Positions 15,287-61,310 of a DNA stretch of 64,000 nucleotides are shown in pieces (position 1 is the stretch's first letter; every line of letters starts with the position of its first letter). The notes beneath the pieces were generated by a model that was given only the letters and a program-made list of their open reading frames with translations, was not told the DNA's origin and made no database searches. The DNA lies in assembly GCF_001456955.1 (NCBI RefSeq), contig NZ_KQ758470.1:62001-126000 (forward strand). Reading direction: 5' to 3'. The position numbers were made by a program, and so were the translations under genes. The stretch comes from Microbacterium enclense (GTDB lineage Bacteria > Actinomycetota > Actinomycetes > Actinomycetales > Microbacteriaceae).

Positions 15287-16692
15287 GCGTCGCCGTTCGA
15301 GCCGGGGGCGGCCCAAGTGGTCGGGCTCTGCGGGTGCGGCGTGGGCGGGGCGTTCGGCGCGGGGACGGGCGGCGGTGGCGGGGCGTCACCGGCGGGAGCG
15401 CCGTAGCCCGGGGTCCCGGCGGGAGCGCCGTAGCCCGGTGACCCGGCGGGAGCGCCGTAGACCGGTGACCCGGCGGGAGCGCCGTAGACCGGAGAAGCGG
15501 CGGAAGCGCCGTAGCCCGGGGACCCGGCGGGGGCGCCGTAGACCGGTGACCCGGCGGGAGCGCCGTAGACCGGAGAAGCGGCGGGAGCGCCGTAGCCCGA
15601 CACCCCGCCGTACCCGGACTGTTCCTGCGCGCCGAAGGGTGCCGGCCGCGCGACGACCCGCCCGACGCCGACCAGGTAGGGGTCGTCGAGATCGGTCGCG
15701 CCGGCGTCACGCGCCTCGACGTAGGTCTGCAGGTCGTGATCGAGCGCCTCGACGCGCATGCGGGCGTCGACGTACACCAGCACCGCCGAGGTGGACTGCA
15801 CGACGAGCGCGATGCACTGCACCAGGAGGATGCCGAACTGGCCGAGGATCTGCACGCCGATGACGCCGATCAGCGCGCCGCTCTCGGTTTCGCCGGTCGG
15901 AGCGAGGATGGCCGGGACGAGGCTGCCGATGAGGCTGAACGGGATCGAGATGATCTGGGCGATGATGCTGAACGCGACCGAGATGACGACGACCACGCCG
16001 AGGGTCGACCAGAACCGCCCGCGCGTGAGCCGCCACGACCGGCCGATGGCCCGGAACACGGGTGAGCGCTCGAGGATGATGACCGACGGCACCAGGAACA
16101 GCTTGGCGGCGAGCCAGAGGGCCACCACGATGAGGCCCAGCACCGCGAGGATGCCGACGAGGATGCCGAGCCACAGCACCGACATCACCAGCAGGGCGAC
16201 GATGCCGGCAAGGACGCCGAGCGCGACAACCGTGGCGAGCAGGGTCAGGGCGCTGTAGCCGATCAGGCGCCAGACCACCGGTTTCACCCGCCCCCAAACG
16301 ACCTTCAACGTGGGCTTCTCGGAGACGACCGCGTGCGCGACCTCGGCCACGACGACGCCCTGCACGATGACGCTCAACGCGCCGGTGGCCACGCCGAGCA
16401 CGAGGGCGGTGGCCGCGGTGAGCACGATCGAACCCGCCAGGATGGCGTCGTAGTCGTCGCTGCCGGGGGCCACGGTGTCGAGTCGCGTGAAGCTGGCGAC
16501 CGCCGCGCCGGCGACGGCCGCCGTGAGGATCAGGTAGGCCGCGGTCTGGGCGATCAGCGCGAAGCCCAGGAGCACCTTCGGGTTGTGGCGCAGCGCGACG
16601 AACGAACGGCCCAGGATCGTGCCGAACCCGTAGGGATGCAGCGGAACGATCCCCGGGCGGGATGCCGGAGTCCAGGCCGGATACGCGGTCAC
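15283..16692 (-). CDS. Polytopic membrane protein (glycerophosphodiester phosphodiesterase membrane-domain type) with repetitive tail
   Basis: A 469-residue protein. The N-terminus (PLHPYGFGTILGRSFVALRHNPKVLLG) introduces about six hydrophobic segments. It matches the membrane domain found in actinobacterial relatives of glycerophosphoryl diester phosphodiesterases, but there is no catalytic phosphodiesterase domain. The C-terminal 130 residues are low complexity: eight 9-residue units based on YGAPAGSPV, then a Pro run. It is the first gene of the operon leading to DUF4129, DUF4350, MoxR and DUF58. The GTG start at 16692 precedes PAWTPASRPG. The tail may be a flexible cytoplasmic interaction region. 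Function unknown. Confidence 0.8.
   Translation of the reverse strand: MTAYPAWTPASRPGIVPLHPYGFGTILGRSFVALRHNPKVLLGFALIAQTAAYLILTAAVAGAAVASFTRLDTVAPGSDDYDAILAGSIVLTAATALVLGVATGALSVIVQGVVVAEVAHAVVSEKPTLKVVWGRVKPVVWRLIGYSALTLLATVVALGVLAGIVALLVMSVLWLGILVGILAVLGLIVVALWLAAKLFLVPSVIILERSPVFRAIGRSWRLTRGRFWSTLGVVVVISVAFSIIAQIISIPFSLIGSLVPAILAPTGETESGALIGVIGVQILGQFGILLVQCIALVVQSTSAVLVYVDARMRVEALDHDLQTYVEARDAGATDLDDPYLVGVGRVVARPAPFGAQEQSGYGGVSGYGAPAASPVYGAPAGSPVYGAPAGSPGYGASAASPVYGAPAGSPVYGAPAGSPGYGAPAGTPGYGAPAGDAPPPPPVPAPNAPPTPHPQSPTTWAAPGSNGDA
15388..15603. repeat. 27-bp minisatellite, eight units, coding
   Basis: Eight in-frame 27-bp units encode 9-residue repeats of YGAPA(G/A)SP(V/G). The Tyr codons recur exactly every 27 bp, at 15403, 15430, 15457 and on to 15592. 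Near-identical units suggest recent slippage. Confidence 0.9.
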
Positions 16693-54322: not shown

Positions 54323-54748
54323 TCACGTGGCGGGCGGTTCGGTCCAGGCGCGCTTCGCTATGGCCGTGACGTCGGCGTCGATGCGGGCCATATCGCCGCG
54401 CAGCCGACTCTCGACGCTCTCCATATCGCCGCGCAGCCGACTCTCGACGCTCTCCATCTGCGCGGTGAGGCGCGCTTCGACGCTGTCGATCTTGGCGTTG
54501 AGTCCGGCTTCGACGCTTTCGATCCTGGCGTTGAGCGCCGTTCCGAGGCTATCGATGCGGTACCCCGTCGCCTGGAGCTCCGACATCGTCTCGAAGCGCA
54601 GCGCGTCTATCCGCGACTCCAGGCGGTCGGTGTTGGCCGTGATGACCTTCGAGAGCGAGCTCATGATGAGGTTCGTGCTGAACGTCATGCCGCCGAGCAC
54701 GGCGGCGGCGAAGGTGCCGATCAGCACCCAGACCTGTGGTTCCGTCAT
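54323..54748 (-). CDS. Membrane-anchored coiled-coil protein with internal repeats
   Basis: A 141-residue protein. One N-terminal membrane helix (VWVLIGTFAAAVLGGMTFSTNLIM) is followed by a coiled coil made of 11-residue repeats, for example ARIESVEAGLN, AKIDSVEARLT, AQMESVESRLR and two copies of GDMESVESRLR-type. It resembles small bacterial hemolysin-XhlA or apolipoprotein-like coiled coils. The ATG at 54748 is preferred because AAGGGA precedes it by 9 nt; ATG 54757 is possible. Function unknown. Confidence 0.75.
   Translation of the reverse strand: MTEPQVWVLIGTFAAAVLGGMTFSTNLIMSSLSKVITANTDRLESRIDALRFETMSELQATGYRIDSLGTALNARIESVEAGLNAKIDSVEARLTAQMESVESRLRGDMESVESRLRGDMARIDADVTAIAKRAWTEPPAT
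54388..54453. repeat. Exact 33-bp tandem duplication within the coiled-coil gene
   Basis: Two identical 33-bp units (54388-54420 and 54421-54453) encode one 11-residue coiled-coil repeat each. Confidence 0.9.
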
Positions 54749-57659: not shown

Positions 57660-58358
57660 ATGGCGAACTTCCTCCTCATCGCGGCCTCGAGCGACATCGG
57701 CGGGGCGACGGCGACACGACTGCGCGACGCGGGGCATCGCGTCATCACCACGGCCCGCGACTCCTCCGTCATCGAGCCGGATTTCACCCTGGATGCCACC
57801 GACTTCGACGCCGTGGACCGCGTGGTTGGCGAGGCGGGAGAGCTCGACGGCATCGCGGTGTTCGCGGGCTCGATGCTGCTGAAGCCCGCGCACCTGACCT
57901 CGCGCGAGCAGTACGACGGTCTGATCGCTGCGTCGCTGACCACGGCGTTCGCCGCGGTGCGGGCGGCGGGATCGCACATGCGCGGCGGCGGTTCGGTGGT
58001 GCTGGTGTCGTCGGCGGCGGCGCTGGCGGGCCTGCCGAACCACGATGGCATCGCCGCGGCGAAGGCCGGTGTGATCGGATTGACGCTGTCGGCCGCGGCG
58101 AGCTATGCGGCGCACGGTCTGCGTGTGAACGCGGTGGCGCCCGGTCTCGTGCAGACACGGCTGACCGAGAAGCTGACGTCGACGGACATGTCGCGCAAGG
58201 TGTCGGAGGCGATGCATCCGCTCGGCCGGCTCGGAGAGCCCGACGATGTGGCGCGGGCGGTGGAGTTCCTGCTCGCGCCCGAGAATGCCTGGATGACCGG
58301 GCAGGTGATCGGCGTCGACGGCGGATTGGGGAGCCTCCGGCCGCGACAGAAGGTGTGA
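57660..58358 (+). CDS. Short-chain dehydrogenase/reductase-like protein lacking the catalytic Tyr
   Basis: A 232-residue Rossmann-fold SDR. The cofactor loop reads LLIAASSDIGGATATRL, a variant of TGxxxGIG. The Ser is kept in VVLVSSAAALAG. Where the YxxxK pair should be, the protein has NHDGIAAAKAGVIG: Lys is present, but Ile replaces Tyr. Other SDR features are normal (VNAVAPGLVQTRLTEKL, ENAWMTGQVIGVDGGLGSL). The gene lies between metX and metY on the opposite strand. It may be a non-catalytic or altered-mechanism SDR. Confidence 0.85.
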   Translation: MANFLLIAASSDIGGATATRLRDAGHRVITTARDSSVIEPDFTLDATDFDAVDRVVGEAGELDGIAVFAGSMLLKPAHLTSREQYDGLIAASLTTAFAAVRAAGSHMRGGGSVVLVSSAAALAGLPNHDGIAAAKAGVIGLTLSAAASYAAHGLRVNAVAPGLVQTRLTEKLTSTDMSRKVSEAMHPLGRLGEPDDVARAVEFLLAPENAWMTGQVIGVDGGLGSLRPRQKV

Positions 58359-58396: not shown

Positions 58397-58722
58397 GGCA
58401 TGCCTGTGGGGAGGGCGATCAGCGGGGGGAGGATGCTGCAGTGCTGTTCGGTCCTCCCGCGTGAGGATCTCCTCCCGTCCCTGGTCTGCGGCGCGCGGGG
58501 CATGCCCGTGGGCACGTCCGCGGGGGAGGACTTTCGCGGAGGGGAGGATGCTGCGGTGCTGTTCGGTCCTCCCGTGTGAAGATCTCCTCCGGTACCAGGT
58601 CGGCGCCGGGCACGCCCGGGGGATATGGCCGCGGGGGAGGACTTTCAGGGGAGGGGAGGATGCTGCAGCGCTATTCGGTCCTCCCGCGTGAGGACTTCCT
58701 CCCGTCCGCGCGCATGCCTCGC
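58397..58722. repeat. Three direct repeats of about 113 bp with internal inverted repeats
   Basis: The 420-bp gap before metY contains no gene. GGGGAGGATGCTGC starts at 58426, 58541 and 58653, i.e. at 115- and 112-bp intervals. Each copy continues with a GTCCTCCC arm that pairs with GGGAGGA, and then GAGGA-CTCCTCC-type pairing. A partial fourth left half precedes the first copy. Confidence 0.85.
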
Positions 58723-58769
58723 CATGCGAGACGCCCCGATCCGGAAGAACCGGACCGGGGCGTCGCATG
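58723..58769. terminator. Terminator of metY
   Basis: Long stem from CATGCGAGACGCCCCG to CGGGGCGTCGCATG with inner CCGG pairs around AAGAA, 10 bp beyond the metY stop. Confidence 0.85.
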
Positions 58770-58778
58770 TGCGGCTGA

Positions 58779-60101
58779 TCAGACGCGTGAGGCCTCCGAC
58801 AGACGGCGCGCGGCGGCGAGGGCCTGGTCGAGGTCGGCCTTGAGGTCGTCGATGTTCTCGAGGCCCACCGACAGGCGCACGAGACCCGGGGTCACGCCGG
58901 CGGTCAGCTGCTGCTCCGGCGTGAGCTGCGAGTGCGTGGTGGATGCCGGGTGGATGACGAGCGAGCGCACGTCACCGATGTTGGCGAGGTGGCTGAACAG
59001 GCTGAGTGCGTTGACGAACTCCCGACCCGCCTCGACACCGCCCTTGAGCTCGAACGACAGCACCGCGCCGACGCCCTTGGGCGCGTAGTTGTTGGCGGCG
59101 GCGTACCAGGGCGAGGTCGGCAGACCCGAGTAGTTGACGCTGGCGACGTCGGGGTGCGACTCGAGCCACTCCGCGATCTCCTGCGCGTTCTGCACGTGGC
59201 GCTCGATGCGCAGCGAGAGGGTCTCGATGCCCTGGATGAGCTGCCAGGCGCTCTGCGGCGCGATCGAGGCGCCCAGGTCGCGGAGCAGCTGCACGCGGGC
59301 CTTGATGATGTAGGCGAGACCGTCGCCGACCGCCTGCGTGTAGACGGCGCCGTGGTACGAGGGGTCGGGCGTGGTCAGGCCCGGGAAGCGGTCGGAGTGC
59401 TCCGACCACGGGAAGCGGCCGCCGTCGACGATGACACCGCCGATGGTGGTGCCGTGGCCGCCGAGGAACTTCGTCGCCGAGTGCACGATGATGTCGGCGC
59501 CGTGCTCGAAGGGACGGATCAGGTAGGGGGTCGCGATCGTGTTGTCGACGATGAGCGGCACGCCCGCCTCGTGGGCCACGTCGGCGACCGAGCGGATGTC
59601 GAGGACGTTGATCTTGGGGTTGCCGATGGTCTCGGCGAAGAACAGCTTGGTGTTCGGACGGACCGCCGCACGCCACTCCGCGGGGTCGTCCTGGTTCTCG
59701 ACGAAGGTCGTCTCGATGCCGAGCTTGGCCAGGGTGTACTTGAAGAGGTTGTACGTGCCGCCGTAGATCGAGCTCGACGACACGATGTGGTCGCCCGCCT
59801 GCGCGATATTCAGCACCGCGAACGTCTCGGCCGCCTGGCCGCTGGCGACGAGGAGGGCGCCGGTGCCGCCCTCGAGGCCCGCGACGCGCTGCTCGACGAC
59901 GTCTTGCGTGGGGTTCTGGATGCGCGTGTAGATGTTGCCGAACTCGGCCAGCGCGAACAGGTTCGCGGCGTGGTCGGCGTTGTCGAACACGTACGAGGTG
60001 GTCTGGTAGATCGGTGTGGCACGAGCCTTGGTCACCGGGTCGGGCTGCGCACCCGTGTGGATCTGCTTGGTCTCGAAACGCCAGTTCTCGGGTGCCGACA
60101 T
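58779..60101 (-). CDS. metY: O-acetylhomoserine aminocarboxypropyltransferase (sulfhydrylase)
   Basis: A 440-residue PLP enzyme of the Cys/Met metabolism family that makes homocysteine from O-acetylhomoserine and sulfide. It has TPIYQTTSYVF, EFGNIYTRIQNPTQDVVEQRVAGLEGG and ALLVASGQAAE. The PLP Lys211 is in VHSATKFLGGHGT. Length and the loop DPSYHGAVYTQAVGDGLAYIIKARVQLLRDLG fit MetY rather than MetB. The ATG has a GAGGAGC ribosome site. metX nearby supports the pathway. Confidence 0.95.
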   Translation of the reverse strand: MSAPENWRFETKQIHTGAQPDPVTKARATPIYQTTSYVFDNADHAANLFALAEFGNIYTRIQNPTQDVVEQRVAGLEGGTGALLVASGQAAETFAVLNIAQAGDHIVSSSSIYGGTYNLFKYTLAKLGIETTFVENQDDPAEWRAAVRPNTKLFFAETIGNPKINVLDIRSVADVAHEAGVPLIVDNTIATPYLIRPFEHGADIIVHSATKFLGGHGTTIGGVIVDGGRFPWSEHSDRFPGLTTPDPSYHGAVYTQAVGDGLAYIIKARVQLLRDLGASIAPQSAWQLIQGIETLSLRIERHVQNAQEIAEWLESHPDVASVNYSGLPTSPWYAAANNYAPKGVGAVLSFELKGGVEAGREFVNALSLFSHLANIGDVRSLVIHPASTTHSQLTPEQQLTAGVTPGLVRLSVGLENIDDLKADLDQALAAARRLSEASRV

Positions 60102-61048: not shown

Positions 61049-61160
61049 ATCGCACGGCGGGGGCGGCGGGCGCCGACCCGGTGTGTCGCTCACGGCAGAG
61101 GCAGTGGCGGTCATCGGGCCGGCGTGGCGCGCCCAACCGGGGTGCCGCGGTCGCCGGGTC

Positions 61161-61310
61161 GCCGCGACGCGCACGCACCCGGCGGCGGCGATCGCCGGGT
61201 GCTCGTGACGCGCGCCGCGGCGGCTGGGCGCCGAGCTCGCTCTGCCGCCGCGACGCGCACGCATCCGGCGGGGGCGATCGCCGGGTGCTCGTGACCCGCA
61301 TCGCGGCGGC
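61161..61310. repeat. Two 64-bp direct repeats each with a 10-bp palindrome
   Basis: The 340-bp gap has no gene. Copies at 61161-61224 and 61247-61310 are nearly identical and 86 bp apart. In copy 1 the hairpin arms are GCACCCGGCG (61175-61184) and CGCCGGGTGC (61193-61202). It may terminate the SDR transcript. Confidence 0.8.

Follow-up and report, generated by a model that had tools for sequence, protein, structure and literature searches.

Word-matched 66-bp palindromes beside AbiEi/DUF559 genes in Microbacterium suggest a REPIN/RAYT-like system built on a different nuclease

Introduction

REPIN/RAYT systems are one point of reference for dispersed palindromic repeats. In the portions of two reports on which we draw (PMC8049555, PMC3733652), REPINs consist of two inverted units around a variable spacer, are dispersed between genes and go with a dedicated, repeat-flanked gene that stays at one place over long times. 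The RAYT enzyme is an HUH tyrosine transposase, and the units end in a GTAG tag (PMC3733652, in part). A second point of reference is the EDxHD homing endonuclease I-Bth0305I which, according to an excerpt of PMC3943268, dimerises on a target of nearly 60 bp. A Vsr-type restriction endonuclease, MTES_1575, is described within a Microbacterium testaceum protein in the available part of PMC3710099. The DUF559 domain is still listed by Pfam as of unknown function; it is mentioned in, among others, PMC12308824 and PMC11079077. In the open-access library searched, which leaves subscription journals mostly uncovered, we found no paper treating DUF559 and AbiEi together, and no title or abstract opening among those listed reports an association between palindromes and such a nuclease.

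Here we analyse a palindromic array between an SDR-family gene and metY in a window of Microbacterium DNA (the window being the whole stretch analysed, 64,000 nucleotides long). Our preferred reading of the array is a single palindrome, a dispersed copy of a genome-wide repeat, that was tripled where it stands, and the association of such repeats with genes for predicted nucleases suggests an undescribed system of repeats and cognate enzyme. The metY gene of the window is 99% identical to that of G464, a genome placed in the same genus.

Results

Three copies of a 66–67-bp site lie in the window (Table 1), each built as W-N13-W-N20-W′-N13-W′ with W = GGAGG. They start 115 and 112 bp apart, giving an array period of about 113, and the GGAGG/CCTCC words are intact twice per arm in all three, so that the triplication and the retained pairing arms described in a first-pass annotation of this DNA both stand. 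Its remark that the interval is non-coding also held: there is no credible protein gene between the end of the SDR gene at 58358 and the metY stop at 58779. Compensated divergence between the copies, which in its view would point to RNA or cruciform structure, did not emerge, one of the nine pairs that differ between copies 1 and 2 being compensated. The interval, which it saw as splitting the metX/metY neighbourhood, does not do so by itself: metX (minus strand) lies on the far side of the SDR gene, which likewise stands between metX and metY, and among relatives the metY–SDR pair lacks GGAGG sites at 10 of the 19 loci with an SDR gene in reach.

Table 1. Features of the array and its surroundings (window coordinates), with the nuclease gene of the same genome
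Feature	Coordinates	Strand	Description
Palindrome copy 1	58410..58475	none	GGAGG-N13-GGAGG-N20-CCTCC-N13-CCTCC
Palindrome copy 2	58525..58590	none	Layout as copy 1
Palindrome copy 3	58636..58702	none	67 bp, the 5′ spacer being longer by one base
Local tandem triplication	58408..58705	none	Encloses all three copies; TRF period 115, score 403
Hairpin past the metY 3′ end	58730..58764		Inverted repeat, distinct from the palindromes; putatively terminator-like
SDR-family oxidoreductase gene	57660..58358	+	Convergent neighbour
metY	58779..60101	-	O-acetylhomoserine/O-acetylserine sulfhydrylase; convergent neighbour
AbiEi/DUF559 nuclease gene	G000:C1:158754-159602 (L008:3752-4606)		This genome; 284 codons; upstream of purM

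The remaining nine metY–SDR loci, from 8 of 17 distinct genomes, do have a GGAGG site, mostly at differing distances, and several of the loci without an exact site hold a GGAGG variant whose centre is 19 bases long. At this slot G622 has one copy, as far from metY as copy 3 is in the window. Copy positions turn over between close relatives. A sister GGAGG palindrome with a 19-base centre and a GGGATG-like spacer occupies the metY–SDR slot of G624, G462, G636 and G403 (L217, L216, L218 and L207) and is also found beside the purM-linked gene of G404; in G406 (L220) the place that GGAGG sites take elsewhere is filled by a long inverted repeat, GTGAGGGGTCA...TGACCCCTC, unrelated to them. The window contains other tandem repeats, unrelated to the palindromes, at 54388-54556, 15389-15599 and 61107-61300 (33-, 27/81- and 41-base periods).

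The exact 66-bp pattern occurs 35 times in the 3.67-Mb genome as against none for the reverse-read control, which excludes chance and shows that the element is not unique to this locus. The pattern is present in 73 of 295 genomes of the genus and in 6 of 398 genomes drawn across the family, belonging to 2 of 85 genera. Just one exact match among the 398 falls outside the genus: a single GGAGG site in G323 (L033), from another genus of the family, with arms that are almost perfectly self-complementary. Over 119 distinct sites the spacings are near-fixed and the central bases vary in sequence, hardly in length; a centre of free sequence and nearly constant length fits a DNA site read by protein better than an RNA loop. 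With gene calls taken from a simple composition score, 34 copies of the window's genome divide into 13 between tandem genes, 9 between convergent and 8 between divergent genes and 4 overlapping a called ORF, and promoters are not preferred. A role as terminators of convergent genes was rejected, placement showing no such preference (9/34 convergent). Elsewhere in this genome (L010:4486-5041; G000:C8, ~163 kb) an 18-base half-site of CTCAG type, CTCAGCGATGTGCACAAC, is arrayed head to tail within tandem repeats of 159 bases, and the genome seems to hold a second, CTCAG-type set.

Pairing between the arms was analysed at two levels. Across species, columns 10, 13 and 16 of the arms vary jointly, pairing at frequencies of 0.63, 0.67 and 0.61 against 0.31, 0.39 and 0.38 expected from column make-up in the 119 distinct sites, whose orientation was set alphabetically, which skews single-column counts. 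Within a genome, the left arm of a copy pairs with the right arms of other copies as well as with its own, and four small sets (28 of the 36 exact copies in G684, 12 of 12 in G685, 8 of 12 in G692 and 11 of 17 in G693) gave no copy-level covariation in the 13-column outer spacer (z = −0.02, 0.08, 0.45 and −0.39, respectively); centre z values were 0.36, 0.32, 1.47 and −1.23. Since they pair across copies, the best reading of the arms is a pair of inverted half-sites that both conform to a single consensus across the genome, as would be expected for the site of a symmetric protein. Folding is predicted for every copy (MFE −20.7 to −35.7 kcal/mol), only mildly better than for shuffled sequence (z −2.66 to −1.08, six folds), and Rfam returned nothing relevant at gathering or loose thresholds. 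What holds of the first-pass interpretation is that the element is repeated, has palindromic arms and recurs elsewhere in the genome and among relatives; an RNA or cruciform kept by compensation is not supported.

The AbiEi/DUF559 nuclease gene of this genome is flanked by two palindromes on each side. Its neighbours are purM and a gene for a 203-residue protein without family match, and neither AbiEii nor another partner toxin was recognised beside it. Palindromes also adjoin the genes of relatives in G476, G443, G164 and G634, and in G528 a fragment of the gene lies between two of them. Relatives of the protein are encoded in 282 of the 295 genomes of the genus (E ≤ 1e-20), so that bare presence of a DUF559 relative is useless as a discriminator; word and position discriminate.

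Among 45 aligned relatives Pfam recognised DUF559 in all, MTES_1575 in 33 and AbiEi_4 in 25; matches were limited to DUF559, MTES_1575 and AbiEi families, with no HUH/Y1 tyrosine transposase. An AlphaFold2 model of the L126 protein (Microbacterium sp. Leaf151, genome G684; pLDDT 92.4) has a nuclease part of predicted Vsr fold, matching I-Bth0305I (3r3p) with Z 12.1 over 95 residues, 3hrl with Z 11.7 and Vsr (1vsr) with Z 9.5; Vsr was not among the best 50 Foldseek matches listed and was found in a further structure comparison. The N-terminal part of the model resembles AbiEi (6y8q; Foldseek E 9.6e-6, Z 8.6 over residues 7–181). The protein is predicted to combine a winged helix of AbiEi type with a DUF559 nuclease of Vsr fold that is related in fold to the homing endonuclease I-Bth0305I. 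Glu189, Gln225, Asp227 and His231 are invariant in the 45 relatives and Asp215 nearly so; the conserved acidic and histidine residues are probably catalytic.

To relate palindromes to nuclease genes we scanned 400 bp up- and downstream of each gene for the W/W/W′/W′ layout, irrespective of the word. The 80 genes examined had been found by similarity to five palindrome-flanked proteins, and the rates apply to such relatives: palindromes were present upstream of 61, downstream of 62, on either side of 73 and on both sides of 50. Control stretches 1.2–2.6 kb away gave 2/157 and 0/158 (2/315 in total), and shuffled flanks 0/80 and 1/80 (1/160). We kept the threshold and scanned 20 more loci, taken from lower down the same similarity-search list; 19 had palindromes on either side and 14 on both (controls 1/39 over all 20); two of these loci, L312 and L331, repeat L183 and L177, and without them the figures are 17/18 and 12/18. 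Strict geometry labels 67 of 110 loci. Ten unlabelled loci, on inspection, proved to have differing spacer and centre lengths, and hence the scan was widened to spacers of 12–14 and centres of 16–24 bases.

The words found at nuclease genes include GGAGG, CGAGG, TGAGG, GTCGG, CTCAG, ACAGG, GCGGA and TCGGA. A core word is common to both sides in 46 of 50 two-sided loci (chance fraction 0.53); under strict geometry the word is identical on both sides in 34 of 35 loci, some genomes of the 110-locus set being counted twice. Mapped onto the nuclease tree, the word core requires 18 changes as against 25.2 ± 0.9 in 1000 shuffles (minimum 22). Dispersed copies follow the same word. Five words were searched in 12 genomes chosen for their words, gene-flanking copies were excluded as judged from coordinates, and a word–genome cell was scored positive with at least two dispersed copies: 13 of 16 resident-word cells were positive versus 3 of 44 others (p = 5e-8). 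GGAGG in G693 was counted as resident, G693 sharing coordinates with G406, which has a purM-linked gene. The three exceptions are GGAGG in G694, whose coordinates match those of G447, a genome in which the contig stops 155 bp from purM; two one-mismatch GTCGG matches in G694, which resemble coding sequence; and two CTCAG copies in G684. Many genomes with a nuclease gene carry few dispersed copies. As judged from the sequences, then, the word differs between nuclease clades, mostly agrees across the gene and recurs in the dispersed copies of the genome.

Twenty-two of the 110 nuclease loci adjoin purM, and all 22 (16 distinct) carry GGAGG, which suggests that the nuclease gene has long resided at this intergenic slot upstream of purM. 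In G421, G465 and G456 nothing occupies the slot (95–96 bp). A GGAGG palindrome stands there alone in G439, as does a variant palindrome in G651 (about 220 bp), and other genomes have gene plus palindromes (1.3–1.9 kb). Comparison covered 76 of 80 places (without G449, G495, G557 and G426), five of the stretches being cut by contig ends. Of 51 genomes that carry two or more exact copies, 18 have the gene at purM, versus 2 of 25 with none (p = 0.013); among the 15 genomes with at least 14 copies it is there in 10. The two without the exact pattern, G404 and G543, have GGAGG-type sites of other spacing beside the gene, and of the 33 palindrome-bearing genomes (of 51) without a gene at purM some have one elsewhere. 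Contigs G475:C33 and G447:C95 break off 144 and 155 bp from the start of purM, at the point where palindromes and gene would be expected; draft assemblies may be interrupted by the repeats.

Discussion

We put the probability at roughly 0.6 that a dedicated AbiEi-winged-helix/Vsr-DUF559 enzyme recognises the 66-bp palindromes on DNA and that they are its non-autonomous repeat units. Our best reading of the whole is a REPIN/RAYT-like repeat-plus-enzyme system with an unrelated nuclease. A dimer would read the two half-sites, each presenting the word twice, 18 bp apart; the nuclease would cleave within the free centre or close to it; and palindromes would be copied from site to site by repair. 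Binding, cutting and mobility are all putative steps, the outcome of which would resemble that of REPIN/RAYT by different chemistry. The odds seem to us even for the wider proposition that repeats of ~62–69 bp in Microbacterium, Agromyces and Leucobacter are spread by word-specific AbiEi–Vsr/DUF559 nucleases, an independent REPIN/RAYT-like strategy relying on break-or-nick homing rather than HUH chemistry, with fast coevolution of enzyme and word.

Three observations count against the enzyme-dependent reading. Dispersed copies revealed neither a target-site duplication nor a clean insertion. The gene is missing from the purM slot in 33 of 51 palindrome-bearing genomes, although some have it elsewhere. 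Moreover, with eight candidates scored per genome, several genomes with palindromes yielded no close nuclease: G651 (14 copies, best match 2e-22), G587 (8, 1.5e-25), G615 (3, 4e-25) and G503 (2, 3e-26); G591 has 66 copies and no gene at purM, its best match elsewhere reaching 1e-99. REPINs are likewise reported without their enzyme, in E. coli genomes lacking RAYT (PMC8049555, in the part available).

The protein could instead be a DNA-binding regulator or nucleoid organiser with an idle or conditional nuclease, the palindromes beside its gene serving as autoregulatory operators and the dispersed ones as a regulon or chromosome anchors. The AbiEi-like winged helix at the N terminus, the sites on both sides of the gene and half-sites that follow a genome-wide consensus would all suit such a protein. 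An idle nuclease sits poorly with acidic and histidine residues that are invariant or nearly so in 45 relatives, and a regulon with copies that show no promoter preference (13 tandem, 9 convergent, 8 divergent and 4 ORF-overlapping among 34) and turn over in position among close relatives; we consider this explanation unlikely.

Protection or titration strikes us as quite improbable. Here chromosomal sites would act as a sink or self-mark while the nuclease targets foreign DNA or serves as an addiction factor. Some colour is lent to such a role by weak matches to AbiEi in PADLOC (L153 having the best, E 4.2e-6) and by two plasmid relatives annotated as AbiEi family antitoxin; against it, no partner toxin was recognised beside the gene of this genome, whose neighbours are purM and the 203-residue protein, and in many genomes the gene comes with few dispersed copies. 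Still less probable is that an unrelated transposase moves the palindromes, which would then be common REP- or MITE-like repeats with DUF559 genes as hitch-hikers. REP-like dispersal, tandem duplication and the many intergenic positions are what such repeats would show, but a word that follows the nuclease clade and matches both across the gene and in dispersed copies is not explained by hitch-hiking. The least credible proposal, a structured RNA or cruciform whose hairpin is itself the functional unit, maintained by compensatory change, can draw on the predicted folding of every copy and the joint changes of columns 10, 13 and 16, but the centre is variable and unpaired and copies have no orientation preference towards gene ends, and with Rfam empty and the within-genome covariation test negative in four small sets we rejected an RNA element.

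If the palindromes are the targets of the enzyme, each nuclease gene comes with its predicted DNA target beside it, which makes recognition by this widespread DUF559 family directly testable. The natural nuclease–word pairs across species would offer a ready code for changes in winged-helix specificity. Should the enzyme spread the repeats, it would constitute a second route to REPIN-like elements.

The system shares features with four described groups. Like MITEs and REP/BIME elements, the palindromes are short, non-coding, mostly intergenic and often in tandem; unlike them, they have a W-N13-W-N20-W′-N13-W′ layout and match a nuclease gene word by word. With the AbiE type IV toxin–antitoxin system the protein has in common an N-terminal part resembling the AbiEi antitoxin fold, to which a C-terminal nuclease is added here, and an AbiEii partner was not recognised beside the gene of this genome. 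With I-Bth0305I it shares a predicted nuclease fold, and the target of nearly 60 bp reported for that enzyme (PMC3943268, in excerpt) is close in length to the 66-bp two-fold site. The gene, unlike those of EDxHD homing endonucleases, does not lie in an intron or inside a split target and has whole sites on both sides, and its predicted DNA-binding part is AbiEi-like. The likeness to REPIN/RAYT lies in the two inverted units, dispersed between genes and set around a spacer that varies in sequence, and in the dedicated, repeat-flanked gene that keeps its place. Here, in contrast, spacings are near-fixed, the word is doubled in each arm, units end in GGAGG or another word in place of GTAG, and the enzyme is a predicted winged-helix Vsr-fold nuclease. 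The palindrome system would thus work like REPIN/RAYT without belonging to it, its predicted enzyme not being an HUH transposase and its units lacking the GTAG tag.
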